A stretch of DNA of 55,076 nucleotides from a virus, in the IMG/VR virus record IMGVR_UViG_3300025132_000049, positions 1 to 55,076 of that record; one strand, written 5' to 3'. Below are positions 22,596-50,350 of this stretch, in pieces. Position 1 is the first letter of the stretch, and every line of letters starts with the position of its first letter. A program made the translations under genes and the position numbers. The notes beneath the pieces were generated by a model. That model saw only the letters and a list, made by a program, of their open reading frames with translations, did not search any database and was not told the origin of the DNA.

Positions 22596-23957
22596 TCATG
22601 CACTCTTTAGGTTGGTAATTTTACCTTGACCCTTAAAGAAAGAACAACCTGTTTCTGCAATGGTTCTATACATTGCTTGGTTTCCTAGTGTTCCTACTCC
22701 GAATGGGTTTCCGTTATCAATTCCATCTTCAAAGTATTGTGTTGGCTTCATAACGCTCATCCAAAGATGGTCGGTATCAAGTATCAACATATCGCTTAAT
22801 GTGTTTGTAGCACTACTGTGTGATGTTTTAGGCATATCCTTACATGGGATAATTGGTATGTCAAAGTAAGTAGCGACTCTAAAGCCGACTTCTGAACCCT
22901 TAACTCCTCTTACACCATTGTGTGTAGGAATAATTTCCTTTCTATCCATAAATCTTTCTTGTGCTTGTAGCAAGTCACCAAGATGCTGAATTGTATCATA
23001 TCCTGTTAAGATAACTTTAGGACTACCACCATTTTGACGGATTCTTCTTAACATATCATTTAAGATAGTTAAAGTCATAACCCTACAATTAGCAGCAGCA
23101 TATCCATCACCATAATCTACTTCTGAATCTAAGAAAGACGCAGAAGCAGCACCACTAGACAATTGACGGTCAGTTGCACCGAAAATGGTCGTAATAGTTG
23201 TAGGTAGAGTATTTGCCGCAGCAGATGTTGCTAGAAGTCCAGCGTCATTCAATGCGTTTAACTCAGCACTTGAAGCAACTATCTTCAATAAAGAAGTATA
23301 TTGTCTACCAAGGTTTGTTACAGTATTAGCCTCATCGTATTTCTCAAGAGGCATTAGTAGCATCTTGTTTTGTACTTCTGCGTGGTGTTTACCCATATCT
23401 TCACGGATTAACGCTCTTAGGTCTCCAACACCGTCATCAATTTTAGCCATTTCTAGCGCAATTTCTGAAAACTCAAACAAATGAGCAACGGTTTTTGGGC
23501 TTGTAAACAAGGTTGTGTATTCTGGTGTAATAGCCGGAATATCATTTCCTGTTCCTAAAGAAGCATTTTCTGCAACAGCACCAATTAAATCTGCTCTTGG
23601 TGTTGCAGTACCTCTTGTTGTTCCTACTCCTGAACCACCAAGAGCAAAAGTAGAACCGCTTCCACCTTCTGCTCGGCTTTTCAAGATACGCCATCCACTT
23701 GATGTATATGGTCTCTTAGGTAGTATAGCCAAAGCATTAACTTCTTGGTTAAGCATAGACCATACTTTTTGTCCGTATATTTTGTTGTATAGTGAAGATA
23801 ATCCACTAGCACCACTCATAACTGATGTTGAAGCATCGTGAGCAGTATGTAGCCCACCAACAACACCTGCGCTCTTTAATAGAGCATTTCCTGTACCGCC
23901 CCTAATTCCATAGGAAGCAGCCTCTAAATCTTTCATTGTTTTAATATATCCACTCAT
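22596..23957 (-). CDS. Major capsid protein (HK97-type)
   Basis: The best start is the ATG at 23957 behind GGAGTGAGTTTA, giving 453 residues (MSGYIKTMKD). It follows the prohead protease directly, as in most HK97-like heads. The N-terminal 50 residues or so are Gly/Ala/Ser-rich and could be a cleavable delta-like arm. A body follows with LYNKIYGQKVWSMLNQEVN (E-loop side), NKMLLMPLEKYDEAN and PKVILTGYDTIQHLGDLLQ (P- and A-domain-like segments). Its codon use and ribosome site fit high expression. Identity rests on order, size and pattern. Confidence 0.85.
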   Translation of the reverse strand: MSGYIKTMKDLEAASYGIRGGTGNALLKSAGVVGGLHTAHDASTSVMSGASGLSSLYNKIYGQKVWSMLNQEVNALAILPKRPYTSSGWRILKSRAEGGSGSTFALGGSGVGTTRGTATPRADLIGAVAENASLGTGNDIPAITPEYTTLFTSPKTVAHLFEFSEIALEMAKIDDGVGDLRALIREDMGKHHAEVQNKMLLMPLEKYDEANTVTNLGRQYTSLLKIVASSAELNALNDAGLLATSAAANTLPTTITTIFGATDRQLSSGAASASFLDSEVDYGDGYAAANCRVMTLTILNDMLRRIRQNGGSPKVILTGYDTIQHLGDLLQAQERFMDRKEIIPTHNGVRGVKGSEVGFRVATYFDIPIIPCKDMPKTSHSSATNTLSDMLILDTDHLWMSVMKPTQYFEDGIDNGNPFGVGTLGNQAMYRTIAETGCSFFKGQGKITNLKSA

Positions 23958-23962
23958 TAAAC

Positions 23963-25174
23963 TCACTCCTCAAATTGTGCTACATAATTATTTATTTCAT
24001 TCCAAGACATTCCACTAACATCAGGTACATCAATTTCCATTGTTTGTGCCTTTGCTATTGTTTCTGTTTGTTCTGAAAGAGACTTTCTCAAGGTAGCAAA
24101 CTCTTCTTTAAGTGCCTCAACTTCATTTTTAGCATCATATTCGCTTCTAGCAACACTAGCCTTACGGACAGTTGTTTCTTCTGCGAATCGTTGTGCGAAT
24201 TGTTTCTTTAGAGAATCATATGCCATTTTCTCTAATTGTTCCGCTTTAAACGCTTCATACGCTTTTTCTACATTACCTGTTGAAAGGTCTAAAGTAGAAA
24301 ACTCATCGTCATTCCACTCTTTATATAGAGAACCTAGTTGACCTGCTTGTTCATGCTTTTTGCCTTGTGTTTCTTCACCTGCACCTGCATTTTCAACAAA
24401 TCCTTCTGGCCCTGTTCTGCCTTTCATTTCAGTATCAGAGTAACTCATTTCAACATCATCTTCTTCTTCATCAAAATCTGCTGCTTCTTTGTCTTTACCC
24501 ATTTCTTCTAATGATTCATCCATCCCATCCATATTTTCAATGTCTAGTTCAGGTTCATCACCCTTTTCTTCTTCTTTCTTAAAATCGTTTAATTGACTCA
24601 TAAAGCCATTTAACTCTTCTAACGCTTTTTCCAATTTTTCACTCATTTTTTCTTTCTCCTCTTTTAAAATATCAAACTTTGCTTCTGGATTTATACCTTT
24701 CTCACAAACTGTTACCTCATGGAGTTCTAACTTGTCAATTTCATTATATTCGCCTAATTCTTCACTAGTCTTTTTTCTTTTACTTAAGGCTTGACCACCT
24801 ATACTAAATGAACGCAATGTTCCTTTTCTTATACCTCTTGAAATCTCTTTTGCTTTTTCTATGTCATCTCTTAATTTAATAACAACATAAAACCCTACAT
24901 CATCTACTTGTGTTCTATGGAGATTACCATGTTTATCTCTATATTTTTCTATTACATCTCCTACTTGAACATTTGAATGATTTGACATTACATTTCTATA
25001 TTTAGGGTCTTTCATGTATTTAACTACTGCTTCTTCTAATGCTTTTAATGTGATTAAATCATTTTGTTTATCTACTATTTCTATTGAAGCATAACCACCA
25101 ATAACTAAATCATCCGATTTAAGTATATTAAACTCAGTATCTTCCCCTGACTTCAACAATATTGCTTCGGACAC
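23963..25174 (-). CDS. Prohead protease fused to scaffold domain
   Basis: Residues 1-180 fit the S78/herpesvirus-assemblin-like prohead protease: GGYASIEIVDKQNDLI, a catalytic His in MSNHSN (H66) and a catalytic Ser in RSFSIGG (S124). Residues from about 180 to 403 are acidic and helical, like a scaffold; the first part is Glu/Asp-rich and the last part coiled (KNEVEALKEEFATLRKSL). The last 15 residues include MSWNEIN, a motif shared with the N-terminal tag on many other proteins here. The start appears to be GTG (25174). It should shape the prohead and cleave itself and other head proteins. Confidence 0.85.
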   Translation of the reverse strand: MSEAILLKSGEDTEFNILKSDDLVIGGYASIEIVDKQNDLITLKALEEAVVKYMKDPKYRNVMSNHSNVQVGDVIEKYRDKHGNLHRTQVDDVGFYVVIKLRDDIEKAKEISRGIRKGTLRSFSIGGQALSKRKKTSEELGEYNEIDKLELHEVTVCEKGINPEAKFDILKEEKEKMSEKLEKALEELNGFMSQLNDFKKEEEKGDEPELDIENMDGMDESLEEMGKDKEAADFDEEEDDVEMSYSDTEMKGRTGPEGFVENAGAGEETQGKKHEQAGQLGSLYKEWNDDEFSTLDLSTGNVEKAYEAFKAEQLEKMAYDSLKKQFAQRFAEETTVRKASVARSEYDAKNEVEALKEEFATLRKSLSEQTETIAKAQTMEIDVPDVSGMSWNEINNYVAQFEE

Positions 25175-25213
25175 AACGGCACTTCCACACTTTACTATAT
25201 TAACTCAGCGACA

Positions 25214-27724
25214 TTAATCAATTTGCATGGTTAATTTTTTAAACCTATCTTGGGTAATATCCCATAAATCTTCCTTATCAGACCTTTCTAACATTGTTTG
25301 TTTTATTCCTGTCCAAGCAAGCCATGTTTTCTGGTTTTTAACAGGTATTACTCTCATATGTAATCTAGTATCAAACTTATCACCTTCTAATTTATATTCG
25401 TGATAACCATGCTTTTGCACACCAAGTAGTATTTTACCACTATCAATTAAATTATCCTTTTGTACGCTTCTAGATATTTCAGCAGGGTATTTACCAGATT
25501 TACCAAATAAGTTATAAATGTCTTTAGTTGAATCAATGTTTATAGTCCATGCTATTGTTTTATCTTTATATTCAATTATTAAATCTAAATTATCATCTTT
25601 TCTATCATATATTTTAAATGAACCATATCTGTTTTCATTTTCATCTTTATCTTTAATTATCAATTTACTATTAGCAGCAAACTTTTGTCTACCAATAGGA
25701 ATAAAGGCATCCATATCATTCATCCAATTTTTTAATTTTTTAGGTTCATTATCAAATAATGCTTCTGTTAATTCTGAATCATCTTTAACTAAAAACTCAA
25801 ATATTTCTTTAATGTGTAGTCCTTCTTCTTTAGGGTCTTTATCTTGAAGGAATTGTTTTATTTTAACTACTGCTTCTCCAGATTTGGCTTTATTTATTTC
25901 AGATAATTGGTCTTTCCATAAATCCATATCAGCAATAGCATTCTTTTCCATTAGACTATCTCCCACTACTCCATATACATTAAATCCTTCATAATCAGAT
26001 TTTAATAATATTTCAGCAGTACCGTGTATTCCATCAGTAATAGTATATTTCAAAAGTGCTTCTTCAACATTATACTTTAATGACTTTCTACCATCTTTAG
26101 CAAGTAATTCTAAAGTAACTACTTTTTCAGGTGTTTCAACTTCTGGTATCTCAATTACTTTTGCTGAGTATAAACTAAAGCCCTTCCCTGCCCTTCTGAC
26201 TTCATCAACTTTAACTCTAACAATAGAACCAATATTCACATTCTCTTTGGTATTCAATGCTTTACCTACTTTCAAATATGTTTTACCTTCGTATTCTGTA
26301 CCATCATATGTCCTAGTATCTTCTCCGTTTAGTGGCCCAATTCCAACAGTATAGGAGTATAAATTAGATTTTGTTTTTCTTTTTTCTAACACTATAACAT
26401 CTAAGTCAACAAACTTCTTGTATTTAATCCACTTAGGATTTTTCTTAACTCCAATGTAATAGGTAGATTCTATATCTTTGATGACTACTCCTTCTGATGT
26501 AGGAGATTCCATAATATCTTTAGCATACTTACTAATTTCCTTTAATGAGTCTGCCGTTCTAGTATTCTTTTTATTAGGAAACTCTAATTCATCTTCTGAA
26601 TGTTGTGCTAACTGATATTGTAATATGTTAATTCTTTCTCTAAGCGGATTATCCGCATGACTAGAACCATCGTGGCTCATTATATCAAATACTTTAGCCT
26701 TCAATGTAGCATCCTTGTATTTATTTTTAAATAAATGTGCTATTGTATCTGCCCTATGTAATGGTTCATCTCCATCATATAGTATTAATTCAGCATCTAA
26801 TATCATTTCACCAAACTTCTTTTGTTTCATTATCTTAATTATTTTCTCACATTTATCAGAAATATCCTTTTCATTATATGTAAATACTTTAACACTATTA
26901 TTATTCTTATGTATCTGGATTCTAATGCCATCATATTTTTCTTGGACTATCCATTCTCCGCTAAATCCTTTCAAATCTTTAATATCATCTACTTCAAATA
27001 TTCTATACATTGGTTTATTAGGTACAATAAAATCTATTTCTGATTTCTCTTCATCACTTTTCTTTAATTCTATCTGGGCTAATTCTTCCCATTCTTCCTC
27101 TGTTTTGTATTCTAAAAACACTTTTTTCAATAATTCTAATGCTCCTTTAAACTTACTTTCTATTCTTTTAGAATCTTTATTGTCGCCATAGTGTTCTATA
27201 ATATACAAAGGTACATCTTTTATTGATATATCTAATCCTTCTATATTATTAGTTAGTTTATCTGGTTTCAAGTCATGTTTTTCCCATGCTTTAGCGGGAA
27301 TACTTTCAGAATCAGAACGTAATGCGTAATGAATAAATATAGCAAATAAATTACTACTTCTAATTAAATTGGGTATTACTTCATCACCCATCTGTCTAGC
27401 AAAGGGGTCATTCAATTCATCAGAATTAAATCTCAATTCTTTAATAGAATCAAATAATTTCTTAGCATCATAAGATTGTGGATTCATTACCTCTTTACTA
27501 AATACATTATCTTCTTCTAAAAACTTTTTTAATGCGCTAGCAAAATCACCTAGTCCGTCAAAATCCTCTCTTATTTGTTTAACAGAAGTAATCCAATTAT
27601 TTCTATATTGCTTTGGTTCTTCTTTTGCTGAAAGATAATTATATCTAACATCCTCGTAAAAATCTAATATACGCTTCGCCAATGCTTTACTATCCTTACC
27701 GACAAAAGCATCTTTTAAAAGCAT
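25214..27724 (-). CDS. ATP-dependent DNA ligase with extra domains
   Basis: Ligase motifs are clear: motif I EKYDGIRIQ with adenylated Lys263, motif III LDAELIL (about 310), IIIa KVFDIM (about 347), IV SEGVVIKD (410-417) and V WIKYKK (432-437), then an OB fold to about 540. A 240-residue helical N-terminal part and a 290-residue C-terminal part flank the core, making 836 residues. The end (GYHEYKLEGDKFDTRLHMR, then TWLAWTGIKQ) is beta-rich and may be a phosphoesterase-like or nucleic-acid-binding domain. It lies between two scaffold-like genes and the protease, an unusual place for a repair enzyme. It could seal genome nicks at packaging or on entry. Confidence 0.9.
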   Translation of the reverse strand: MLLKDAFVGKDSKALAKRILDFYEDVRYNYLSAKEEPKQYRNNWITSVKQIREDFDGLGDFASALKKFLEEDNVFSKEVMNPQSYDAKKLFDSIKELRFNSDELNDPFARQMGDEVIPNLIRSSNLFAIFIHYALRSDSESIPAKAWEKHDLKPDKLTNNIEGLDISIKDVPLYIIEHYGDNKDSKRIESKFKGALELLKKVFLEYKTEEEWEELAQIELKKSDEEKSEIDFIVPNKPMYRIFEVDDIKDLKGFSGEWIVQEKYDGIRIQIHKNNNSVKVFTYNEKDISDKCEKIIKIMKQKKFGEMILDAELILYDGDEPLHRADTIAHLFKNKYKDATLKAKVFDIMSHDGSSHADNPLRERINILQYQLAQHSEDELEFPNKKNTRTADSLKEISKYAKDIMESPTSEGVVIKDIESTYYIGVKKNPKWIKYKKFVDLDVIVLEKRKTKSNLYSYTVGIGPLNGEDTRTYDGTEYEGKTYLKVGKALNTKENVNIGSIVRVKVDEVRRAGKGFSLYSAKVIEIPEVETPEKVVTLELLAKDGRKSLKYNVEEALLKYTITDGIHGTAEILLKSDYEGFNVYGVVGDSLMEKNAIADMDLWKDQLSEINKAKSGEAVVKIKQFLQDKDPKEEGLHIKEIFEFLVKDDSELTEALFDNEPKKLKNWMNDMDAFIPIGRQKFAANSKLIIKDKDENENRYGSFKIYDRKDDNLDLIIEYKDKTIAWTINIDSTKDIYNLFGKSGKYPAEISRSVQKDNLIDSGKILLGVQKHGYHEYKLEGDKFDTRLHMRVIPVKNQKTWLAWTGIKQTMLERSDKEDLWDITQDRFKKLTMQID

Positions 27725-27730
27725 CTAATA

Positions 27731-27970
27731 TTATTCCTTTCCAAACTCAGGTCTAATTCCTTCTAATACTTCTAACTTTTCTTCCGCAGGTTTTTTCTTA
27801 GGTTTAGTAAGTTTAACTTCTTCTCCTTCTGTTTCTACGGTTTCTTCTAATGGTAATTCATTATAATTAATAATTTCACCTACTGCTTCTTTTGCTTTAT
27901 TTACAGCATCTACTAGTAACTCTTCCATTTTTTCTTCCTTTGTTATTTTTTTAGGTAATAAATCATCCAT
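27731..27970 (-). CDS. Small acidic protein in the scaffold region
   Basis: This 79-residue protein (MDDLLPKKITKEEK) is highly charged and helical at the N-terminus, with a Glu/Lys/Pro-rich tail (VKLTKPKKKPAEEKLEVLEG). GGAGGTTATTGA precedes it and its start abuts the previous stop. Charge and position suggest a scaffold or assembly accessory protein. No tag motif and no family recognised. Confidence 0.65.
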   Translation of the reverse strand: MDDLLPKKITKEEKMEELLVDAVNKAKEAVGEIINYNELPLEETVETEGEEVKLTKPKKKPAEEKLEVLEGIRPEFGKE

Positions 27971-28204
27971 TCAATAACCTCCTTCTATTTTATTTACCAT
28001 AGCATTGATGTCTTTCCAATCCATCTTTGCTATCTTATCATCTGAAACATCTGTTGTACTAGATATTGCAGGTGCAGGTGTAGTTGCAACTACAAACCCC
28101 GACTTCATCAGTATATTATCATCATTATATACTGTATTTTCTAACTTTTTTACTTTATCTACTAATTCTTTTAGTAGCATTAACATTTCATTTTCTTCAC
28201 TCAT
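27971..28204 (-). CDS. Small scaffold-like protein with C-terminal tag motif
   Basis: The ATG at 28204 (MSEENEMLML) is best placed behind AGGAGATGAAAAAA; an ATG 9 nt upstream lies within that site. The 77-residue protein has an N-terminal coiled coil (LLKELVDKVKKLENTV), a Ser/Thr/Ala/Pro linker, and ends with KMDWKDINAMVNKIEGG. That end matches both the N-terminal tag of the accessory proteins (MSWKDILK) and the end of the protease-scaffold protein. A scaffold or tag-receptor role is inferred. Confidence 0.65.
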   Translation of the reverse strand: MSEENEMLMLLKELVDKVKKLENTVYNDDNILMKSGFVVATTPAPAISSTTDVSDDKIAKMDWKDINAMVNKIEGGY

Positions 28205-28541
28205 TTTTTTCATCTCCTAATTTTCCTTTACTTTTTGGATATACCGTTCCTCTTAATTGACGGTATAGAATCTCATAATCCTTTCTTAATTCAGAGGCAG
28301 CAGTAGTCAATGCTAAATTAGCCTCATCTATTTTATTTATTTTTTTATTCAGTTTTTTATCTGATTTCATTACACCTAATGTTTTCAGTTCTTTTATTAA
28401 ATCATCTAATTTAGTAAAATCTTGCCCCATATATTCACTAGGTTCAGAAGATTGAAGTAATTTCTTAATCTTCTTTTTTTGTTTGGGCGATACTTTCTGA
28501 AAGATACCATTATCATTTTTAATTAATTCATATTCCCACAT
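28197..28541 (-). CDS. Basic helical protein with tag-like start
   Basis: The 114-residue protein starts MWEYELIKNDNGIF behind AGGAGTGATTAATA. The start keeps Trp, two aliphatics, Lys-Asn-Asp, so it may be a divergent form of the M-x-W tag. The rest is Lys-rich and helical (KKKIKKLLQSSEPSEYMGQ, then KLNKKINKIDEANLALTTA). It overlaps the next gene by 8 bases. A role in head assembly is likely from position; no family recognised. Confidence 0.65.
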   Translation of the reverse strand: MWEYELIKNDNGIFQKVSPKQKKKIKKLLQSSEPSEYMGQDFTKLDDLIKELKTLGVMKSDKKLNKKINKIDEANLALTTAASELRKDYEILYRQLRGTVYPKSKGKLGDEKNE

Positions 28542-28547
28542 TATTAA

Positions 28548-29066
28548 TCACTCCTGATAGTTTATTCTTCCGGTTCTTCTATTAAACCTCTCTTCGTTGA
28601 ATTGTTGATTGTCATCATAGTCTGATTGCCTCCTAGCGTCATCATATTTAGTATTATCAAAATTATGACTACCTCGTATAGTTTCTCCTACCAGTTTACC
28701 ATTCCTAGTTAATACTTTATAATGAACTTCACATACTCTAAAACCGCACTTTCCACTATCAGAATATTCATCAGTATAACTTACATCACACCAATATTCT
28801 GCTTCATTCTTACATTTGCCGGGGTGGTCTGGATTACTTTTTGCCAACTCTCTATCAGCCATAGAACCATCATTAATATATTCACATTCAACCTTATCCC
28901 CTGTTTTAACTTTAGTCTTCATGCTTTGAGGTTGAGCCATTGAAGCAGGTGATGCTTGCCACGCTATATTTCTTGCTTTATCACTATCATCTTCTTTAGG
29001 CATCATAGTTTCTGGTCTTAGGTTTTTAAGAACCTCTTTCCAATCACCTTCACAAGCATTACACAT
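28548..29066 (-). CDS. Cys-rich protein with offset tag
   Basis: The protein starts MCNACEGDWKEVLKNLRPE. After a short C-x2-C leader comes DWKEVLKN, a good match to the tag, seven residues later than usual. Further on there are several Cys/His pairs (KCKNEAEYWCDVSYTDEYS, KCGFRVCEVHYK) that could form a treble-clef or zinc-ribbon domain. The C-terminus is polar and Arg/Asn/Asp-rich. GAAGGTGTAGAATA precedes the ATG at 29066. Probably an internal head or assembly protein; function unknown. Confidence 0.65.
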   Translation of the reverse strand: MCNACEGDWKEVLKNLRPETMMPKEDDSDKARNIAWQASPASMAQPQSMKTKVKTGDKVECEYINDGSMADRELAKSNPDHPGKCKNEAEYWCDVSYTDEYSDSGKCGFRVCEVHYKVLTRNGKLVGETIRGSHNFDNTKYDDARRQSDYDDNQQFNEERFNRRTGRINYQE

Positions 29067-31053: not shown

Positions 31054-31803
31054 TTAAACCTTCCAAGTTAATTTTCTTAGTTGGTATATATTATACCAAT
31101 CAAGAGTTTTACGATTCTTCATAATTCTTTTTACAACCAATTCACTTTTAGTTAATTCTGCGTCTGGAGTGTTAAGTAATTTCATTGCATATTCATATTC
31201 CTCTTCGCCTAACTCTCTTTTAAGTTTTTTAAAGTAGAACGTATCACGCTTATTTCTTCTTTCATCATTATTTATTTTAGAATAGTGATGAGTATAGGGT
31301 AGACTACTCATATCCGATAACATATTATGACGAAGACTACCAGATGAATATTTACTTCTTTTAGCGGAACGGTCTATATTATTCCAAATCTCAGATACTA
31401 GATGTCGCAACCTAGGCTTATCTCTATCAAAGATTGCGTTTCCTGAATAGAAAAGTTTTTTCATACTAGTATTCAATTCTTCTGTACTTATTTTTTTTAA
31501 TTTATCAAATGTGGCAATTCTATCTATTTCATCCAGAAACATACCCGTTGTGAGATTACTGTAAGTAGCATTAGAAAACTTAAACTCAATAGAACCTTTC
31601 ATGTCAAGAGTTAGTGCCTCATAATGGTTGAAAATATTTCTTAATGCCGTGTGGTTAGCATCTGTCATCTCATCTTCTGTTAAGTATAAAACATTAAATC
31701 TATGACTTCTTTCATCAACAGGTTTGAGGAAACGATGTAAAAAAAGTATTAATTTAGTTGCTTCCGGCCATTCATTAGATGATTTTAATATTCCCATCCA
31801 CAT
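31054..31803 (-). CDS. Portal-adjacent protein with tag-like start
   Basis: The 249-residue protein starts MWMGILKSSNEW, a one-residue-shorter variant of the tag (Trp at 2, Ile-Leu-Lys at 5-7). It is helical and basic (SEIWNNIDRSAKRSKYSSG, KLKRELGEEEYEYAMKLLN). Its start overlaps the portal stop as TAATG. Proteins in this place often form minor head or injection components (for example Mu gpF/SPP1 gp7 position), but no sequence match to those is visible. Confidence 0.65.
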   Translation of the reverse strand: MWMGILKSSNEWPEATKLILFLHRFLKPVDERSHRFNVLYLTEDEMTDANHTALRNIFNHYEALTLDMKGSIEFKFSNATYSNLTTGMFLDEIDRIATFDKLKKISTEELNTSMKKLFYSGNAIFDRDKPRLRHLVSEIWNNIDRSAKRSKYSSGSLRHNMLSDMSSLPYTHHYSKINNDERRNKRDTFYFKKLKRELGEEEYEYAMKLLNTPDAELTKSELVVKRIMKNRKTLDWYNIYQLRKLTWKV

Positions 31804-36216: not shown

Positions 36217-36540
36217 TTAACTCCATTTTTTAGAATCTAACATAGTTAAATCTTCATTGCAGTCAATATATTTATCGTGTATTGCTTCTATCAATTCGTA
36301 TGCTTGCCCTATCATCTCATCGTGCATTGGAGCATTAGCATATTTTAACATTGCACTTTCACCGATACTAAGAATCCTTTCTATTTCTGGTACTAACTCA
36401 CTACATTCCTTTTGTTCAGAATATCTAGCCAACTCTATTAATGGGCTTTGAGCAAATGTTGTCATAATATCTTGTGCTAATACTCCACAACATTTGTTAT
36501 CTTCGGTCTTGACATTTTTTAACACATCTTTCCAACTCAT
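36217..36540 (-). CDS. Tagged small helical protein
   Basis: The 107-residue protein starts MSWKDVLKNVKTEDNK, a strict match to the tag. The body is helical and acidic (SEQKECSELVPEIERILSI, EMIGQAYELIEAIHDKYID) with a CC pair near residue 18. It ends one base before the terminase gene. Function unknown. If the tag is a head-targeting signal, this would be a small internal protein. Confidence 0.75.
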   Translation of the reverse strand: MSWKDVLKNVKTEDNKCCGVLAQDIMTTFAQSPLIELARYSEQKECSELVPEIERILSIGESAMLKYANAPMHDEMIGQAYELIEAIHDKYIDCNEDLTMLDSKKWS

Positions 36541-36555
36541 TCTAAATCACAGTCC

Positions 36556-36975
36556 TTATCTTGCTTCTAGTAGGTAATCATATAATTCTTCTAAATCCTC
36601 TCTATAATGTTCTCCCCAACCTTGAGAAGCAATATAATATCCATCCATACCTGTATAAGACCCGATTCTTAATCCATTCTTACCTACATAATCTATTTCA
36701 TAACTAACTGTAATATCATCATCTTCGTCATGTGTATCAGAAGGGCTGATTATTAATTCTCCATTAGGATAATCAATGTATAAACTAAACTCAGAAGCAT
36801 CACGATAACCTTCAAAATCATCATCCCAATCCCCATTGGAAATTACTAATCGTTCATCTAAAAAATCTTTTAGTTTTTTACGAACTTCACGTATTAAATC
36901 AGTAATTGGCATATCCCAATCATTCTCGCTATAATCTATTCCATAACTATTTTTCAATATATCTTGCCAACTCAT
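36556..36975 (-). CDS. Tagged acidic protein
   Basis: The 139-residue protein starts MSWQDILKNSYGIDYSE, a strict tag match. The body is alpha/beta and strongly acidic: IREVRKKLKDFLDERLVIS, EFSLYIDYPNGELIISPSD, DDDITVSYEIDYVGKNGLR. It ends with an acidic helix. The run of Asp/Glu could mimic nucleic acid, but that is speculative. No family recognised. Confidence 0.75.
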   Translation of the reverse strand: MSWQDILKNSYGIDYSENDWDMPITDLIREVRKKLKDFLDERLVISNGDWDDDFEGYRDASEFSLYIDYPNGELIISPSDTHDEDDDITVSYEIDYVGKNGLRIGSYTGMDGYYIASQGWGEHYREDLEELYDYLLEAR

Positions 36976-36989
36976 ATTAATCTTTTCCT

Positions 36990-37163
36990 TTAGCCTTTAC
37001 GCGACATTTCTCTATATATATCTAACTTTTCTTTCATTAGTACAATTAGTTGTTCATGCAATTTGATTTTTTCATCTAGGTATTTAATTTTGACACGAAT
37101 ATCTGCATGAAATGCACCATCATCTCCATATCTTTCTCCTTTTACTATATCTATCCAACTCAT
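36990..37163 (-). CDS. Tagged 57-residue coiled-coil protein
   Basis: I choose the second of two adjacent ATGs (37163), which gives MSWIDIVKGERYGDD and keeps Trp at position 3, with GGGAGG seven bases upstream. After the tag comes one amphipathic coiled-coil helix (IKYLDEKIKLHEQLIVLMK). It could oligomerise. Function unknown. Confidence 0.7.
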   Translation of the reverse strand: MSWIDIVKGERYGDDGAFHADIRVKIKYLDEKIKLHEQLIVLMKEKLDIYREMSRKG

Positions 37164-37739: not shown

Positions 37740-38075
37740 TTATACCAACTCGTCTAATTTTTGTTTTACTAAAGGCCATAACATATCATTTACTTCCGAC
37801 CAACCAAAGTCAGATAAAGTATATCCCGCGTCTTCTAAGTCTCTAATAAAGTCTGGGTCTGTCTCTATTACTTGCCAAAGGTCATCAATGATTTCCTTTA
37901 TGTGTTCATAAATTGCTATTTTAGCATCACTAGGTATGGGATTACCAAGTGACATTTTAGTTAACTCTACTATAAGTTCCAAAGTATCTCCAAGATTTAT
38001 TATCATATTCTTTTGTAGTGAATTAAACACCCATTCGGTTGCTTCATCATTTTTTAATATTTTTTCCCAACTCAT
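37740..38075 (-). CDS. Tagged acidic helical protein
   Basis: The 111-residue protein starts MSWEKILKNDEATEW, a strict tag match. The body is all-helical and acidic, with alternating helices (NLGDTLELIVELTKMSLGN, IYEHIKEIIDDLWQVIETD). The end (WSEVNDMLWPLVKQKLDELV) is amphipathic. Function unknown. Confidence 0.75.
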   Translation of the reverse strand: MSWEKILKNDEATEWVFNSLQKNMIINLGDTLELIVELTKMSLGNPIPSDAKIAIYEHIKEIIDDLWQVIETDPDFIRDLEDAGYTLSDFGWSEVNDMLWPLVKQKLDELV

Positions 38076-38079
38076 GTTA

Positions 38080-38847
38080 TCACCCTTTTATTCTATTAGC
38101 AGAAGAATTAGATGACTCTCTATATGCTTGCTTATAAGATTCACCAATTTCTTTCATCTTTGGAATCATTTCACCCATTTTAGCATCTACAATCTCTTTA
38201 ACTTTACCTTCTAGTTCTTCTTGATTTAGTTCTTCTAAACCTTCTACCCAACCAGAAATAATAGAGTTTACCGTGTTTTCAAACTTTTTAATAAACTTAG
38301 GAACATATTTGTTAATAATAACTTCTTTTATTTTTGTGTTATCAGAGAACATATACTGCTCGGTTTTACTAGTACTCTGTGCATATACTTCATCTAAAAC
38401 TTGCCATTCTGCAAACTTTTTCACTTGTGTTAAAACGGGTTGGATAGATGAAATGGGTCTATTATATAATATATGGTTTGATACGTCTGATATATAATCA
38501 TTCATCACTATTATTGTCTCCTCGCTAAATTGTTTAGAGCCTTGTATATCTTTTACTGCTCTATGTGCGCTTTCATGTACAGCAGTATCAACAATTTGAT
38601 TTATTATATCTAATTCTATCTCCTCACTTAACTTATTATATTTGTCTAACCACTCTTTAGATTCGCCCCCTGTGATTGTATCTCCTATTCTATTTAAGTC
38701 AGAAAGCATTTCTGCACTAAGACCCAACTGCTCATTAGATAAATTAACCCAATCTTTATTTCTACCTCCTTCACTAAAACCACTAGTTTTCGGTCTTTCG
38801 GGAAAAAAACCAAAATTGGAATCTTTTAGAAGACTAAACCATTTCAT
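38080..38847 (-). CDS. Tagged putative HExxH metallopeptidase
   Basis: The 255-residue protein starts MKWFSLLKDSNFGFF (strict tag), behind AGGTGATATT. After a Gly/Pro/Ser-rich linker, residues 80-100 read IINQIVDTAVHESAHRAVK. H91-E92-x2-H95 is the zincin active-site pattern within a hydrophobic helix. A candidate third ligand is in WQVLDEVYAQS, about 55 residues later. The end is acidic and helical. If real, a virion-carried protease might act on host or viral proteins on entry. The motif is short, so chance is possible. Confidence 0.65.
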   Translation of the reverse strand: MKWFSLLKDSNFGFFPERPKTSGFSEGGRNKDWVNLSNEQLGLSAEMLSDLNRIGDTITGGESKEWLDKYNKLSEEIELDIINQIVDTAVHESAHRAVKDIQGSKQFSEETIIVMNDYISDVSNHILYNRPISSIQPVLTQVKKFAEWQVLDEVYAQSTSKTEQYMFSDNTKIKEVIINKYVPKFIKKFENTVNSIISGWVEGLEELNQEELEGKVKEIVDAKMGEMIPKMKEIGESYKQAYRESSNSSANRIKG

Positions 38848-41317: not shown

Positions 41318-43287
41318 CTACTCACCTCTACTACTCCGGCTTCTTCTAAGTCTCTAAACATTAAGGAAGATTTTGTATTAGTTTGTCCTGTTTTACGACC
41401 TTCATCATCTCTTCTAAACTCAGTATATACTAATTCATCTTGATATTTTAATGGACTCTTTATTATATCTTCTACCTTTAATCTAACTGCTTCAATAAAC
41501 CCATCTACAATATCTTTGTAATTTTCTTTAGCAGTTTCTACTACTTCTTCAAATTGAATATCATCTTCTTCATAATCATCTGGATTTTTCCAATCTTGAA
41601 CACTATCATGTAGCCCTGTATCAGCATAATACCAATCTAGTAATACTAATGTATGGAATATATCAATAGAAGATATGCCAGAAGTGGTATCATACTCTTC
41701 ATTATATTCTTCTTCAATAATATCCCAAGCAGAATCAGAAGATGCACTAACTGATTCAGAAGATGACCTTAAGTTTCTAAAATCTCTTATCAATAAGTCT
41801 GCCTTTTTCTTATTTGATTCTGTAATATTTAATTTATAAAAATCTCCTATCTTAGTAAATACATTTTTATCTTGTTCATCTGCATCATCTAGTATATTGA
41901 ATAAGGTATTGGCTGAGGCTCTTGGTAATTCTTCTCCATATAATTCTTTAATTGAAGAAATTAATCCACCAATAGACATATCTTCTATATTTGATTTAAG
42001 TTCGTTAATTTTATCTACTTCTGATTGAGTAAATAGATTTTGCTTATTAGTATAATATCCTTTAATTTTATCTATTGCCTCCTTTTCTCTACCACCTAAT
42101 CTACTTATTTGTCTCAAAAACTTAGGCATTTCCATTTGTCTACTTCTTCTTGTTCCTTGAAACTTTGATTTTAATTCATCCATTACTTCTAATGAAATAC
42201 CTGCATCTTCATAATCAAACTCTTCTTGTCCTGTCAAAACTAATCTAACAAAATTAGGCACTAAAGTTTCTTTAGTTTGTTTGACACCTTCTTCCATAAT
42301 AGAATTAATATCCATATTTTGATTTACCAATATTGCTTTCAATGGTGCTGTCAACACCACTTTACCTTGAGGCATCATAAGTCTTTTTCTTGCAGAATTA
42401 ATGGCTGCTTTGGTTTGTATCTCTGGAGTTGGCATAAACATTGAAGATTTATTCCATCCTCTTTTAGTTAAAAGTTTCATATAATTAATAGCATCTTCAC
42501 CTGTTTCTACACTAACAGTATAGTTTTTTCTTTCTTGTGCAGCAACAGCATCCATTCCTTTTTGACTAGTAAGTAAATTGTATATTTTAACTAATGGTGC
42601 AACTTCTAATTTGCCTTTACTTTTGTACGCGTTCCTTTTAGCCATCTTACCTTTCTTAAACCAAGATAGAAACTTTCTATAATCTTCTAAACTTACTCTA
42701 TCTGGCATTTTTAAAATATACCATGTAGGAAAATCGGGATGAGAACCCTCGGTAACTTCACCTTTTACATATTCTGGCGGTTTATCTATTGTTTCATATA
42801 TTCTATTTCTACTATCTACCCAATAAAACTCATCTTCTTTGCCTTCAATGAAATTAATTACTTCATCCTTTTTATCTGTGAATGCCTTAATTTTTTCTTT
42901 TTCATTCGGACTACTCCTTAATCTACCTTCGCCTAATAATTCTTTGAAGGCATCCATATCTTCTGATTCTAGTATACTATCTAATCTCTCAGCAATAGTA
43001 CCTTTAATTTTAGCAGGTTGAGTATTTGATTTCATCTCTCTCAACATAGTTGAAAGCATTTCGTGTACCTTTTTAGCATTAGATATAATTGTCTTTCTTT
43101 GCTCATCAGTCCATCCTTCATTAATTCCCTTACCATCTGATAATTCTTTAGTGGTATTTATTACGGCTTTAATTCCTTTTTTATTCTTTTCAGCCTCTTG
43201 CTCTATATGTGATACACCATCATCGGATAATAGAAAACTCTCTACGTTATCGGGAGTTGGCAATTTTTTAAGTATTGACGACCACAT
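41314..43287 (-). CDS. Large protein with shortened tag (657 aa)
   Basis: The protein starts MWSSILKKLPTPDNV, the tag with one residue missing before Trp. The body is mostly helical with an alpha/beta region around residues 130-220 (EFYWVDSRNRIYETIDKPP, FPTWYILKMPDRVSLEDYR). A polar Ser-rich, acidic section lies near 500-560. No catalytic motif recognised. It would be one of the larger candidate cargo proteins. Confidence 0.75.
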   Translation of the reverse strand: MWSSILKKLPTPDNVESFLLSDDGVSHIEQEAEKNKKGIKAVINTTKELSDGKGINEGWTDEQRKTIISNAKKVHEMLSTMLREMKSNTQPAKIKGTIAERLDSILESEDMDAFKELLGEGRLRSSPNEKEKIKAFTDKKDEVINFIEGKEDEFYWVDSRNRIYETIDKPPEYVKGEVTEGSHPDFPTWYILKMPDRVSLEDYRKFLSWFKKGKMAKRNAYKSKGKLEVAPLVKIYNLLTSQKGMDAVAAQERKNYTVSVETGEDAINYMKLLTKRGWNKSSMFMPTPEIQTKAAINSARKRLMMPQGKVVLTAPLKAILVNQNMDINSIMEEGVKQTKETLVPNFVRLVLTGQEEFDYEDAGISLEVMDELKSKFQGTRRSRQMEMPKFLRQISRLGGREKEAIDKIKGYYTNKQNLFTQSEVDKINELKSNIEDMSIGGLISSIKELYGEELPRASANTLFNILDDADEQDKNVFTKIGDFYKLNITESNKKKADLLIRDFRNLRSSSESVSASSDSAWDIIEEEYNEEYDTTSGISSIDIFHTLVLLDWYYADTGLHDSVQDWKNPDDYEEDDIQFEEVVETAKENYKDIVDGFIEAVRLKVEDIIKSPLKYQDELVYTEFRRDDEGRKTGQTNTKSSLMFRDLEEAGVVEVSR

Positions 43288-43292
43288 CTAAA

Positions 43293-44207
43293 TCACGCTA
43301 AATCTTTAGATGCTCCACCTTCATATCCTGTATATCTTTCATCAGGCTGCTTTTTTACTTTGGCTTTAAAACCGAAAGGTATCATTTTACCATCTGGGCC
43401 TTCTTCCATTTCTTCACTAAAGAAAATTGCTCTAGGCATATCAACTTGCATAGTTGCTTCTCGATAACCTTCCATTGTAATTGTAGGATAACCTCTGTTA
43501 CTCCTTGAAATATCATCTCTATCTGAACCATATTCAACTAATCCTTTTGAATCTAAACTTCTTAGATATTTACTTGGTGATTCTTTTTCTAATGGCCCAA
43601 TACCAAACTCATCAAATAATCTAATTCTTTCTTGTCTTAGTCTTGGTTTTCTTTGTTCTGCAAATATACCTAATATTGCTAATGCTGCGGCTTCACCATT
43701 ATTTAATTCATACTTACCTTGTAAAACTTTTTCAGTTCTTTTCTGACCGAGTTTATTTAATACACTAGATTCTACCGGAATTGTTACTTCTACAACAGGT
43801 GTTCTACCATATAATTTAACTTCAACTCCTATTTGGTTTTTAGTTAATGTAATAGTATGCTTACCCATACCAAACTGAACAGCAGTCTCACTTTGTTCAT
43901 TTCCAGATTGTAAGTATTCTCTAGTATACATTTCTTCCCAACCATCATCAACTAATGCACAAGTTTCAACATTTATTACAGCCCAAAACCCTGCTGCACC
44001 TTTAGCAGCATTAATTCTAGGAGTAAATGAATTATCTTTTCTTAGAAACATTTTTCTAGAAGCAGTAGGCCAAATTGATTCCCAAGGAACTGTTGTTTTA
44101 TTGAGGTGTTCTTCTAAACAAGGGATGTCATCTGGAGCAAAATGCTTCCAAGTATCTCCCTTGTATGTTATAGGAGGAGGTGCTTTAATTACTGTAAACC
44201 AATCCAT
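43293..44207 (-). CDS. Tagged winged-helix-like protein
   Basis: The ATG at 44207 follows AGAGGTAATCAAA and gives MDWFTVIKAPPPITY, a strict tag; an ATG 30 bases upstream would add ten residues but has no such site. Residues of about 170-250 look like a winged helix (EAAALAILGIFAEQRKPRL, SPSKYLRSLDSKGLVEYGS). The N-terminal half is alpha/beta. The C-terminus is Lys/Gly-rich. DNA binding is a reasonable guess. 304 residues. Confidence 0.7.
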   Translation of the reverse strand: MDWFTVIKAPPPITYKGDTWKHFAPDDIPCLEEHLNKTTVPWESIWPTASRKMFLRKDNSFTPRINAAKGAAGFWAVINVETCALVDDGWEEMYTREYLQSGNEQSETAVQFGMGKHTITLTKNQIGVEVKLYGRTPVVEVTIPVESSVLNKLGQKRTEKVLQGKYELNNGEAAALAILGIFAEQRKPRLRQERIRLFDEFGIGPLEKESPSKYLRSLDSKGLVEYGSDRDDISRSNRGYPTITMEGYREATMQVDMPRAIFFSEEMEEGPDGKMIPFGFKAKVKKQPDERYTGYEGGASKDLA

Positions 44208-44212
44208 TTTGA

Positions 44213-44693: not shown

Positions 44694-45091
44694 TCTAAAT
44701 CACCACCACTAAAATTACCTTTTCTATCCATTTGATAGAGCGTTAAATAAGAACCATTTTCTCTGTAAATATCAACATAAACACTTCCGCCTTCAAGAGA
44801 CAATTTTATGTTTAATGATTTTCCTACCCCATCTAAAGCATTACCATCATTAATATCACGTTGCATAGTCTCTAACTTTTCTTCGTTATAATCATCTTCA
44901 TCAAACAAATAACTATTTAGAAAGTCTTCTAGTTTTTTTTCAAATACTGTAAGAAATTGTTTTTCTTTTGATAAATCACGCAAAGGTCTTTCAGAATCTT
45001 TAATTCCCATCTCTCTCAAATAATTAGAGTGTGCTTGGGTTGGGGTGTCTGATGCTCTAGGGTCATTCTTTAGTATATCTTTCCAACTCAT
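44690..45091 (-). CDS. Tagged protein of unknown function
   Basis: The 133-residue protein starts MSWKDILKNDPRASD, close to the tag consensus. A helical, acidic middle (FEKKLEDFLNSYLFDEDDY) is followed by a small beta part (LNIKLSLEGGSVYVDIYRE, SYLTLYQMDRKGN). Layout resembles the 139-residue tagged protein at 36,556 (tag, helix, beta sheet), so the two may be distant relatives. Function unknown. Confidence 0.75.
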   Translation of the reverse strand: MSWKDILKNDPRASDTPTQAHSNYLREMGIKDSERPLRDLSKEKQFLTVFEKKLEDFLNSYLFDEDDYNEEKLETMQRDINDGNALDGVGKSLNIKLSLEGGSVYVDIYRENGSYLTLYQMDRKGNFSGGDLE

Positions 45092-45092
45092 A

Positions 45093-45392
45093 TTACCATT
45101 CTCCTATAAACACATTTTTTCTTTCTAATGCACGTTTTACATTTTGTTTCATTAGTGCCTCAATTTTTCTAACTACTGCACCTCTAGCGCCTGTTGATAT
45201 AATAAACTTAACAGGTTTACCATCAGGACTTGCTTCACCCTCATAGGTACAATATATTTTAATGTGTTGGGTCTTATTACTGTGATTAATTTTGTCAATT
45301 GTGACTCCTTCTATACTGTTTATGGCTTTTTTAATTCTTTTAAGCACTTTAGAAGAAATATACTTTCCTTTAATTATATCAAACCAACTCAT
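45093..45392 (-). CDS. Tagged HicA/dsRBD-like protein
   Basis: The ATG at 45392 overlaps the previous stop (TAATG) and gives 99 residues, MSWFDIIKGKYISSK. After the tag, the pattern helix (LKRIKKAINSIEGVTI), strands (KTQHIKIYCTYEG, KPVKFIISTGARG), helix (VVRKIEALMKQNVKRAL) resembles the alpha-beta-beta-beta-alpha fold of HicA and small phage nucleic-acid-binding proteins. A catalytic His of HicA could be QH in KTQHIK. Low certainty for a toxin; better for RNA/DNA binding. Confidence 0.65.
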   Translation of the reverse strand: MSWFDIIKGKYISSKVLKRIKKAINSIEGVTIDKINHSNKTQHIKIYCTYEGEASPDGKPVKFIISTGARGAVVRKIEALMKQNVKRALERKNVFIGEW

Positions 45393-45760
45393 TATTTCCA
45401 CGACTCCTCTTCAGGGTATAATTCCATAGCGTGTTCTATATCATCTCTAAAGTTTTCGGCAACTTCTAACCAATCAACATCGGATATTGAATCTCCAATT
45501 TCATCTCTATCATTAACAGGAGACAATAAATCATCCATAAAACCTTGATGATTACTCATTAGTTCGGGCAATTCCTTTGCTAACACATTCAATACATCTT
45601 CAATTACTTCTTCTTTAGACCAATTCCAATCAAGATACCCCTTTACCTTTTCTTTGATTAATTGTATTATTGGAAAATAAGTTGCTTCATCGTTCATAAC
45701 CCATAAATCCGCAGTTCTAGTTGCAGTACTAGTATCTTTCAAAACAGAAAACCATTTCAT
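45392..45760 (-). CDS. Tagged acidic protein
   Basis: The 122-residue protein starts MKWFSVLKDTSTATRT, a strict tag followed by a Ser/Thr-rich linker. The body is helical and very acidic (WSKEEVIEDVLNVLAKELP, VSDVDWLEVAENF-like helix). It overlaps the next gene by one base. Function unknown; the strong negative charge and the same tag recall other members of this block. Confidence 0.7.
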   Translation of the reverse strand: MKWFSVLKDTSTATRTADLWVMNDEATYFPIIQLIKEKVKGYLDWNWSKEEVIEDVLNVLAKELPELMSNHQGFMDDLLSPVNDRDEIGDSISDVDWLEVAENFRDDIEHAMELYPEEESWK

Positions 45761-45773
45761 TGTAACTTCTCCC

Positions 45774-46166
45774 TCACTCGTATTGCCTACCTATATACGA
45801 CATAAACCCTTGCGTCATCTTCCTGTGAGCAAAATACTTAGTTACATCAGGAAACCGATTTTCTGCTTGCCTTAATAATGATTCTATTACCCTAATGCGT
45901 AATCCATTAGTGCGTGTAAACCACCTTGATTCATAGAGCATATCTTCTAAGCGTTGTATTTTTGCCTCCATATCTTTTTCACTACCTATTCTAGATAACT
46001 CAAAAGTCATTTTGTCTAAACCATAATTAAACTTTTCAACAGTATATGGTTTTCCATTTGAACCTATAATATTTCCTTCACTAATAATATCTCTTAAATC
46101 TTGAAAATCCCTAGCACTTTCAATTCGTTGAGTTAATTCGTCTTTAATAATATTAAACCAACTCAT
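45774..46166 (-). CDS. Tagged helical protein
   Basis: The ATG at 46166 follows GGAGGAGAAATTACA and gives 130 residues, MSWFNIIKDELTQRI. Later Met/GTG alternatives upstream lie inside the previous gene. The body is helical (DMEAKIQRLEDMLYESRWF) with a basic end (RLRIRVIESLLRQAENRF). It overlaps the zinc-finger gene by 4 bases. Function unknown. Confidence 0.7.
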   Translation of the reverse strand: MSWFNIIKDELTQRIESARDFQDLRDIISEGNIIGSNGKPYTVEKFNYGLDKMTFELSRIGSEKDMEAKIQRLEDMLYESRWFTRTNGLRIRVIESLLRQAENRFPDVTKYFAHRKMTQGFMSYIGRQYE

Positions 46167-46819
46167 TGTAATTTCTCCTCCATCTTTGCTTTTACATCTA
46201 ACCAAACTTGAGGATGATTCTGTGCTAATACTTCTTGCACTACTTGCATTTGTGCAACTATAATTGTATCTTGTCTCTTGTGTACGAGTTTACCTTTAAA
46301 CTCCATTAAGTATCTTAAACTCTCTCTAATTTCTTTAGCCATCTTAGTTAAACTATCTACATACTTAGGGTGCATTTCTTCTTGTTCAAATAAAATATCT
46401 ATCTTTTCTTCTAATCTAGTAATGGTTCTAGTCAAAGATTCTATCTCATCTACTTCTTTTTTTGCTATTATGTTTGCCGCAGCCTTTTGCACTAAAGGTT
46501 GTAAATGTTTTCTCATGTGCCTTTTTACTTGTTCTTCTGAACAATCAACCATTTGTGCTACCGCACTAGGAGTAATATTACCTTCTTTTAATTGTTCTTC
46601 TACTAATGAACGTAATTCATGCGTACATAGATTACATCTAGGATTTGACGCATCTACATATTCTCCCATATGATTTCTTTGATGTCTTGCTGATGTTCCA
46701 CTAGGCCAATCCATTTGTTTATCTAAATCATCTGGTGCAATAGATAATGTTTCTAACTGTGCTTCTAAATCATCACGCTGCTCATGGTTACAAAGCCTAC
46801 ATCTTCTTCGCTTTACCAT
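46163..46819 (-). CDS. Two-zinc-finger DNA-binding protein; small terminase candidate
   Basis: The 218-residue protein has two related modules: CRLCNHEQRDDLEAQL...ARHQRNHM (about residues 7-51) and CNLCTHELRSLVEEQL...KRHMRKHL (about 63-107). Each is a C-x2-C...H-x3-4-H motif within a helix-turn-helix-like unit, typical of phage DNA-binding proteins. A coiled coil follows (VDEIESLTRTITRLEEKID), suitable for oligomers. No other small terminase candidate is visible, so this is the best one, though it lies 10 kb from terL. GAGGTGTTAGT precedes the ATG. Confidence 0.65.
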   Translation of the reverse strand: MVKRRRCRLCNHEQRDDLEAQLETLSIAPDDLDKQMDWPSGTSARHQRNHMGEYVDASNPRCNLCTHELRSLVEEQLKEGNITPSAVAQMVDCSEEQVKRHMRKHLQPLVQKAAANIIAKKEVDEIESLTRTITRLEEKIDILFEQEEMHPKYVDSLTKMAKEIRESLRYLMEFKGKLVHKRQDTIIVAQMQVVQEVLAQNHPQVWLDVKAKMEEKLQ

Positions 46820-48036
46820 ACTAACACCTCAGCCCATGACTTTTTGAGTTTCTTATCTTTTTTAGCCTCAACTTTTTCTTTCTTTTTAGCCTCAACTTTT
46901 TCTTTTTTCTCTTTAGGTGTAACATATCCTTTCAAATAAACTGGGCCTTTTCTACTTCTTCTAGCACAAAGACCTGTTAACAGAAATAGATTCTTAACCA
47001 TCCCTCTCGTTATATCTAATGAATAGCCTTTTACTTCTGCCTCTAACATTTCTTTAACACCATACACATCTTTAATTCTATTTGATTCTGTTTCATCATC
47101 TACTTTAAAAGTCATTCTTGAAATCATTCTTGTTATTTGGTCATCTCTAATATTACCTGTATTAGGATTTACTCCTCTACCAATATTATCTTTATTACCT
47201 ACTAATTGTAAAATTGTTTCTTTAATGTCATCAATAGAATACAACTCCTTTGATAATCCACCTCTAGGTACTCCTCTTAATACTAGTTTAACGTGTTCAT
47301 TAACTACTTTTTTACCTACTCCTTTAGCAGATTGTAATACTGTAAAGAGTCCGGTTGTTACTAACATACCTTCACCTCCCCCTTCTGCATACAATGCTTG
47401 CCACATAGGAGGTTTAGATGTATTTTCACTTGTTGTAGCCCAACTTTTAGGTACTGCCTCTAACGTCTCAGCATACTCTTTATTTTTGAATACTTTAGAT
47501 TTTAGGTTTCTAAAACTATTATAGTCCTTAGTTCTATAATGCCCATAATGTATCTTTACATTCTTCTTTTTAAATTGAGCAGTTTTTTTATTTACTCTTC
47601 TGAATATAGGAATAGTGAATGGTGTATTTCTAGGGTCAGCATCAGAATCTTTCATTTCATTTAAATGTTCAATATACTCATCTACTTTTTTCTGAAATCC
47701 CTTAGTTAGTATTTTTTTATCATCTTTAACTAATTCACTCATTTCTTTAATTAATGAACCTATACCATCTTCTTCTGATACAGGATTTTTTGCCTGTGGT
47801 CTATTTTCTATCCCATGTTTTTTAACTAATTCAAGTAAATTAATCGCCTTAACTCCTTTTATTCTCATTTGTTCTGGTGTCGCGGCTTTACATTCAGTTA
47901 CCCATTTATTGAATTGTGATTTTAGAACACTTGCATCAAATGTCTGAGTAATAATTACTTTATTACCATCTGAATTGGTAACAGTAACAGTCCTTCTGGA
48001 TTTTTTTGTAGTATCAGTCTTTGGCAATTTCGTCAT
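46813..48036 (-). CDS. Basic protein of unknown function (407 aa)
   Basis: The protein starts MTKLPKTDTTKKSRR. GGAGG lies directly against the ATG, an odd spacing. It is Lys-rich, with an alpha/beta centre (LYAEGGGEGMLVTTGLFTV, EHVKLVLRGVPRGGLSKEL). Near the end an 8-residue tandem repeat (KEKVEAKK twice) comes from a 24-bp DNA duplication. The last residues, KKSWAEVLVW, resemble the tag moved to the C-terminus. No family recognised; nucleic-acid binding is possible from charge. Confidence 0.7.
   Translation of the reverse strand: MTKLPKTDTTKKSRRTVTVTNSDGNKVIITQTFDASVLKSQFNKWVTECKAATPEQMRIKGVKAINLLELVKKHGIENRPQAKNPVSEEDGIGSLIKEMSELVKDDKKILTKGFQKKVDEYIEHLNEMKDSDADPRNTPFTIPIFRRVNKKTAQFKKKNVKIHYGHYRTKDYNSFRNLKSKVFKNKEYAETLEAVPKSWATTSENTSKPPMWQALYAEGGGEGMLVTTGLFTVLQSAKGVGKKVVNEHVKLVLRGVPRGGLSKELYSIDDIKETILQLVGNKDNIGRGVNPNTGNIRDDQITRMISRMTFKVDDETESNRIKDVYGVKEMLEAEVKGYSLDITRGMVKNLFLLTGLCARRSRKGPVYLKGYVTPKEKKEKVEAKKKEKVEAKKDKKLKKSWAEVLVW
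46863..46910. repeat. 24-bp tandem duplication in a coding region
   Basis: Two copies of a 24-base unit beginning TAGCCTCAACTTTTTCTTT start at 46863 and 46887. They encode the KEKVEAKK repeat near the end of the 407-residue protein. Probably slippage in a Lys-rich tail. Confidence 0.7.
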
Positions 48037-48175: not shown

Positions 48176-48465
48176 TCTAATTCCTCAATCCTCATTAATG
48201 AATTAGAAAGCATTTCTAATTGTTCTTTAATTCTAAGAGGCTCTAATTGTTTAGTTCGATTCGCATACAAATCTGCCTCTTCTATCATTTGATTAACCAT
48301 TCCTCTAACATCATTTGTGTTAACATTAGTTTTAAACATTTGAGGATAACTCCTTTGTAATTCTACTAAAGGTTTAATTAATTGATTTAAATCTGGGATT
48401 GGTTTGCTAAATATTTCACCTATTCTAGTCATATCCATTACTTTAATTATATCTTTCCAACTCAT
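48172..48465 (-). CDS. Tagged helical protein
   Basis: The 97-residue protein starts MSWKDIIKVMDMTRI, a strict tag. Helices follow (LNQLIKPLVELQRSYPQMF, RIKEQLEMLSNSLMRIEEL). The first 18 coding bases are identical to those of the tagged gene at 45,091. Function unknown. Confidence 0.75.
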   Translation of the reverse strand: MSWKDIIKVMDMTRIGEIFSKPIPDLNQLIKPLVELQRSYPQMFKTNVNTNDVRGMVNQMIEEADLYANRTKQLEPLRIKEQLEMLSNSLMRIEELE

Positions 48466-49993: not shown

Positions 49994-50350
49994 TCACACC
50001 TTGTAATAAGTAGTCTTACCTGTTCTACCAACTGAGGATTGTTGCTTAGTCTTTAAACCATACTCTGAAATCCTATTTTTCAATACTTGTTCTAAATTGT
50101 TTGTATCATATTTCATGGCAGGGTTTAATTCCTTAATTTCCTTAGCAAGGTCTGATAAAGTATACCATTCTTCTTTATCCATTACTTGTTTGACCTGTTT
50201 GCTTAAAGTATCATAAAACTCTATACTTCTCTTGCCATGCTTCTTGCGAATATAATCAAGGTGTTTCATGTCATTAGGTTCTGCATACTTTTCAGCAAGC
50301 AATTCAAACTCCTTCATTTCTGAGGATTTAACTAAATCAAACCAAGTCAT
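49994..50350 (-). CDS. Tagged winged-helix-like protein
   Basis: The ATG at 50350 behind TTGGTGAGAACA gives 118 residues, MTWFDLVKSSEMKEF. Residues of about 60-118 look like a winged helix (YTLSDLAKEIKELNPAMKY, NNLEQVLKNRISEYGLKTK, wing and strand GRTGKTTYYKV). DNA binding is likely. The start overlaps the stop of the upstream gene. Confidence 0.7.
   Translation of the reverse strand: MTWFDLVKSSEMKEFELLAEKYAEPNDMKHLDYIRKKHGKRSIEFYDTLSKQVKQVMDKEEWYTLSDLAKEIKELNPAMKYDTNNLEQVLKNRISEYGLKTKQQSSVGRTGKTTYYKV

Follow-up and report, generated by a model that had tools for sequence, protein, structure and literature searches.

The window, a 55-kb record (55,076 nucleotides) of a tailed virus, carries its genes on the minus strand, to which all coordinates below refer. 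Its head module follows the order terminase, portal, several small genes, an 80-aa protein, an ATP-dependent DNA ligase, a protease-scaffold protein and the major capsid protein. The protease-scaffold protein (23963..25174, 403 aa) consists of an N-terminal Peptidase_S78 domain (Pfam PF04586, 5.8e-10), an acidic linker, a long helix, a short linker and a terminal helix, and the 80-aa protein (27971..28213), for which 84 relatives were collected, consists of a coiled coil, an MKSGxVV..TPxP linker and a terminal helix bearing the motif described below; the earlier reading of both proteins as scaffold-type fits this architecture well. The major capsid protein (22596..23966) has an HK97 fold of the SU10_MCP type (Pfam PF17236, 1.1e-6; PHROG 24667, 2.5e-21) and is the suspected docking partner. 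Two further features of this region may be recorded here: the ligase (836 aa, 25214-27724), which lies between the two scaffold-type genes, has an extra C-terminal part, and a 96-kb relative (G001) encodes a different ligase in its replication arm; and downstream of the capsid gene, adjoining two short membrane-like proteins, there is a protein (20160-20828) with a P-loop GTPase-like stretch, GATRVGKTT.

The C-terminal end of the protease-scaffold, ...GMSWNEINNYVAQFEE, contains MSWNEI at residues 389-394 (23993..24010), and that of the 80-aa protein, ...KMDWKDINAMVNKIEGGY, contains MDWKDI at residues 64-69 (28007..28024). Both fit the core of a short N-terminal tag found on other proteins of this virus, M-[STDN]-W-x-[DE]-I, as the earlier note had observed for the first six tag residues, and its coordinates and residues for both ends proved correct. 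Its description of proteins that end with the motif needs a small amendment: the motif lies near the end of each chain and not at its extremity, as 15 residues are counted from M389 and 17 from M64.

Across 14 contigs we read 170 tags with the consensus M-[STNK]-W-x-[DES]-[IVL]-[LIV]-K, on 111 groups of proteins that are non-homologous once the tag is removed, with about 6-20 carriers per genome. Within the window, MWMGILKS (31780..31803) adjoins the portal gene, and further N-terminal tags are MSWKDVLK (36517..36540), MSWQDILK (36952..36975), MSWIDIVK (37140..37163), MSWEKILK (38052..38075), MKWFSLLK (38824..38847), MWSSILKK (43264..43287), MDWFTVIK (44184..44207, where the likely start is an internal ATG of the open reading frame 43293-44237), MSWKDILK (45068..45091), MSWFDIIK (45369..45392), MKWFSVLK (45737..45760), MSWFNIIK (46143..46166), MSWKDIIK (48442..48465), MWYNLLKP (49923..49946, at an internal start), MTWFDLVK (50327..50350), MSWFDIVK (50596..50619), MYWAKLLK (51133..51156), MKWYSVLK (51527..51550), MNWKDILK (51745..51768) and MSWMNVVK (53621..53644). 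An offset tag, DWKEVLKN (29022..29045), lies near the start of a 172-aa protein (28548-29066). With positions 7-8 left free, the pattern M[STND]W..[ILV] occurs at 124 protein starts versus 3 of 6155 internal Met sites. Codons within the tag vary synonymously, which indicates selection on the peptide and rules out a codon-level or regulatory-DNA explanation. Tagged genes are bunched in a single arc adjoining the head genes and on the strand of those genes; in 13 of the 14 contigs this clustering exceeds random placement at the 5% level.

Family scans of 72 tagged proteins yielded hardly any matches. The tagged protein at 50734-51156 (IYYHATPFSNLSSIMAKGLVP) recalls ADP-ribosyltransferase-type folds; we do not claim a T4 Alt-like enzyme, as its AF2 model (two sequences) had a mean pLDDT of 44 and no PDB match, and a scan of viral contigs found no relatives. 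One other contig (G004, 11931-13896 of locus L179) holds four tandem related tagged proteins, MTWFSIVKNRLLVKP and MWFSIIKSKLLVKP among them, which is a local expansion of one cargo family.

The presence of two matching C-terminal ends in the window is a real observation. A position-weight matrix trained only on the tags of the thirteen other genomes, over positions 2-6, ranks the end of the 80-aa protein first and that of the scaffold sixth among 16,895 non-tag positions in the window; the offset tag ranks second among such non-N-terminal positions, and the remaining top matches are mostly further real tags. When each protein of the window was shuffled, two or more C-terminal matches arose in 1 of 3000 trials, and the internal background (9 core matches in 257,000 positions) predicts 0.05 C-terminal matches among 65 genes, where two are observed.

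Conservation in relatives is strong evidence for the motif and more decisive than these chance estimates. We collected 133 unique C-terminal ends of S78 proteins, comprising 125 complete ones from the tag-bearing group, one truncated frame and seven tagless outgroups. Among the 125, the tryptophan is present in every one and the strict core in 122, the remaining three reading [ML]SWEQV, with Q in place of D/E; the case that the earlier note had raised, of relatives that keep the tags while their scaffold ends lack the motif, was thus not encountered. Tryptophan and strict core are likewise present in 84 of 84 small-protein ends from tag-bearing relatives, a set gathered partly by demanding the motif, so we take as the unbiased figure that of a protein search, which recovered a homologue of the small protein in 24 of 24 contigs. 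Over the last 25 residues, only W391 never varies among 28 diverse scaffolds, and 16 diverse small proteins all keep M64 and W66; the Met preceding xW is kept in 99 of 122 scaffold ends and 83 of 84 small proteins. Some of these scaffolds are less than 60% identical to that of the window, and the linkers before the motif vary in sequence and length. The core is the most conserved feature of the scaffold and small-protein ends.

The motif also travels with the tags. A DNA pattern for the tag, built with no reference to the capsid gene, matched at least 119 stretches of viral contigs; 38 of the 49 tag-bearing contigs checked encode a Peptidase_S78 protein, and every complete Peptidase_S78 protein read among the tag-pattern contigs ends with the motif. 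Neither tags nor the C-terminal motif occur in the tagless archaeal relatives HVTV-1 (~95% of the genome), vir519 and vir335 (head region only), and the putative scaffold of vir519 ends KMTTEEI, the same helix cap lacking the tryptophan.

The organization of the protease-scaffold gene gives the C-terminal end further context. An AF2 model based on 28 homologues predicts a long helix at residues 299-377, a linker, and a separate helix at 391-399 that begins at the conserved tryptophan; the model is poor overall (pTM 0.21) and only the boundaries of the C-terminal helix were used. A profile of the protein found no match among solved structures. Downstream of the protease domain lies a nested in-frame start codon preceded by an SD-like sequence, and this points to a putative stand-alone scaffold of 227 aa (23963..24646) with the same C-terminal end. 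Start and SD-like sequence are conserved in 77 of 107 unique relatives versus a 20% background, and two relatives (L094 and L121) keep the start as TTG, so that the residue is changed and the start retained. Lambda makes a stand-alone scaffold from a nested start. If such a protein is made here, the nested start could be the main source of scaffold ends.

Scaffold and small-protein ends match each other better within a genome than between genomes: over motif positions 1-10, identity is 45.4% for pairs from the same genome, as against 41.8% when the genomes are mismatched (2 of 5000 permutations, uncorrected for phylogeny). Position 9 accounts for most of the excess, which is missing from most columns immediately ahead of the motif, and in one genome 14 of 21 residues are identical between the two ends. 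This matching supports a common site for the scaffold and the small protein and is silent on the tags.

One family extends the motif to the other end of a cargo-type protein. The 407-aa protein at 46813-48036 carries the tag SWAEVLVW at its extreme C-terminal end (46816..46839), and the family of ~390-aa proteins to which it belongs (the window's member and 12 relatives) does so in 13 of 13 contigs, with ends such as KKSWNEILKVN, KMDWRTVLKGN and SDWRQIVKAVQ. The tag is thus not a feature of start codons and is usable from either end, and this family offers a naturally occurring counterpart of the scaffold ends. In cargo tags, position 7 is hydrophobic in 123 of 124 cases and position 8 is K/R in 119 of 124; at the ends of scaffolds and small proteins, position 7 is instead H/N, a different polar residue or A/G, and hydrophobic residues follow at 9-10. 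The C-terminal family mostly agrees with the cargo-type positions 7-8, so the split, cargo [LIV]K versus scaffold-end [HN]x, depends on what sort of protein carries the motif, whichever terminus it occupies, which defines two subclasses of one motif, with cores that are nearly invariant in both. Most cargo tags at a C-terminal end lack M1, and in MS- and MT- tags the start Met would probably be removed in the cell. In ideal helices built from both classes, the hydrophobic faces have about the same orientation. Most simply, one pocket would take W3 and I6 in both classes, with differing extensions; a different partner for the cargo tags is possible.

We consider scaffold mimicry to be the best reading of these results, with a probability of about 55%: the W-x-x-I core would be a head-assembly docking helix shared by scaffold-type ends and cargo. 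In the protease-scaffold, in the stand-alone scaffold from the nested start and in the small protein with its coiled coil, this short helical element would sit beyond a flexible linker at the C-terminal end and bind to a site repeated along the lining of the growing shell; the inner face of the major capsid protein is the most likely place for this site. Unrelated proteins from genes around the packaging and head module, which carry a related element at the N-terminal end (in one family the C-terminal end), would then enter the prohead by taking up that site or one that overlaps it. Tagged proteins would stay inside once the protease has destroyed the scaffold, and delivery along with the DNA may follow. 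The motif with its conservation, its co-occurrence with tags and its use at either terminus, the conserved signal for a nested start and the predicted terminal helix come from the sequences themselves; we infer the binding partner, the packaging of tagged proteins and their delivery. The capsid wall is favored as the partner on the strength of known scaffolds that contact the shell, by the C-terminal end in herpesviruses, where all scaffolds bind the capsid protein in this way (PMC12474303), and in P22 and 80alpha, and by the N-terminal end in phi29 (PMC12749128). The proposal of the earlier note that cargo enters as a scaffold mimic through a common site thus gains from the shared conserved core, its co-occurrence with tags and its use at either terminus, but the differences at positions 7-8 and at M1 speak against a fully identical site. 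The odds seem about even for a broader form of this reading, in which these widespread marine archaeal viruses use a natural cargo-loading code: a short docking element, at either terminus, common to the scaffold, an auxiliary scaffold and a changing set of passengers, such that about eight added residues would make any protein virion cargo by scaffold mimicry.

A less probable reading, although one that we keep as a genuine minority possibility, places the contacts within the scaffold core, with tags binding the core, the scaffold end binding inside the same core, and the likeness reflecting scaffold-scaffold contacts and not a capsid site. We retain it at that level because the targeting sequence of T4 is described as core-binding: T4 targeting sequences show an affinity for it, and gp22, the core protein, co-purifies with internal proteins (PMC9026906). 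The coiled coils of the scaffold and the small protein could build such a core, and the class difference at positions 7-8 would fit a related but different surface. However, herpesvirus and P22 scaffold ends bind the shell, and the motif comes after a linker in the last part of the chain, as expected of an element that contacts the shell.

M/S/x/x/E/I is also a generic helix-cap pattern, which raises the question of convergence: a common Met/Ser/Asp-x-x-Glu/Asp-Ile cap with a hydrophobic staple could have arisen at helix starts in cargo and scaffold ends that bind unrelated partners. The capped but tryptophan-free end of the tagless vir519 scaffold and the class-specific positions 7-8 would suit this explanation. 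We nonetheless regard it as distinctly unlikely, given that the tryptophan, second after a hydrophobic residue, is invariant in both classes, that the combination is rare inside proteins, and that tagless relatives lack the tryptophan. It is very improbable that the motif is recognized by the head protease and trimmed off cargo and scaffold at maturation; such proteases do remove T4 targeting sequences (PMC9026906) and herpesvirus scaffold ends (PMC12474303), and docking and cleavage are compatible with each other, but the tags have no conserved residues past position 8 and the flanks of the scaffold ends show no consistent cut site. Least probable of all is a host-side function of the tags, for example as a chaperone or localization signal, with scaffold ends matching for some other reason: nearly all tagged proteins have no assigned function, as this would allow, but tags and scaffold ends are deeply conserved and tagged genes adjoin head genes.

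The tag-bearing viruses form a large uncultured ocean group that is probably archaeal. Relatives of the window virus are 92-103 kb in length, the 96-kb relative encodes PolB, RFC and a TFIIB-type zinc ribbon, and the capsid protein matches archaeal viruses only. Magroviruses are tailed-virus genomes of ~90 kb that carry archaeal replication genes and resemble haloviruses (PMC10160649), and on genome size and replication genes the window's group looks like these viruses of marine archaea, with Poseidoniales as a candidate host. A genome search for the host matched only bacterial MAG contigs, which we regard as mis-binned (virus relatives inside MAGs labelled Maricaulis and Altibacter, L327-L330; mis-binning is the most likely explanation). 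One contig of 184.7 kb (L232, G041) has two Peptidase_S78 genes ~91 kb apart and many tags, and represents either two genomes joined in assembly or one doubled genome. The Haloarcula tailed viruses HVTV-1, HCTV-1 and HCTV-5 (Druskaviridae) encode homologues of the capsid protein (25-27% identity) and of the protease (32-34%), arranged in the same order. In HVTV-1, gp115 and gp116 (frames from ~13553 and ~17541, L209) both contain a near-identical YVDSPxxAPEGVQVQQG stretch, possibly a shared element of another kind that haloviruses have.

If scaffold mimicry is correct, it would explain how the head of a tailed virus is filled with many different proteins by no dedicated loader, and virion cargo of uncultured marine viruses could be listed from sequence alone, with more than 100 unrelated proteins in the 14 contigs read. 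It would also supply a minimal peptide for loading proteins into capsids. The parts are already known separately, as targeting sequences in T4 and P1 and as scaffold C-terminal ends in herpesviruses and P22. The open literature searched, which excluded subscription papers, held no earlier report of the motif, nor of natural cargo and scaffold sharing a short element with many carriers per genome.

By analogy, the nearest functional relative of the tag would be the capsid targeting sequence (CTS) of the T4 internal proteins IPI-III, a short N-terminal sequence common to divergent head-internal proteins, much as the tag sits on unrelated proteins in the window's group. In the available part of the source, the CTS is described as core-binding and is cut off by gp21, other proteins of T4-related phages carry CTS-like sequences, and no C-terminal scaffold copy of the CTS is described (PMC9026906), whereas here the scaffold ends share the core and one family has its tag at the C-terminal end. 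In P1, the first 30 residues of DarB suffice for sending a protein to the head, but this concerns one protein, with no separate scaffold known in P1 and no motif common with a scaffold (PMC9024508). The protease-scaffold gene has the layout of those of lambda and the herpesviruses, a protease domain followed by a scaffold region in one frame, with a putative nested in-frame start. Herpesvirus UL26/UL26.5 likewise combines a protease fused to the scaffold, a nested in-frame scaffold start and a short C-terminal element (PMC12474303). The protease here is of the S78 type from a tailed virus, unlike UL26/UL26.5. To our knowledge, no herpesvirus cargo protein carries the scaffold end. In the engineered loading of P22, cargo fused to a truncated scaffold of ~160 residues is packed inside the shell (PMC9962691); that system is man-made, whereas the element proposed here would be natural and six to eight residues long. 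Scaffold mimicry would link, in a way open to test, the targeting sequences known from T4 and P1 with the scaffold C-terminal ends of herpesviruses and P22.
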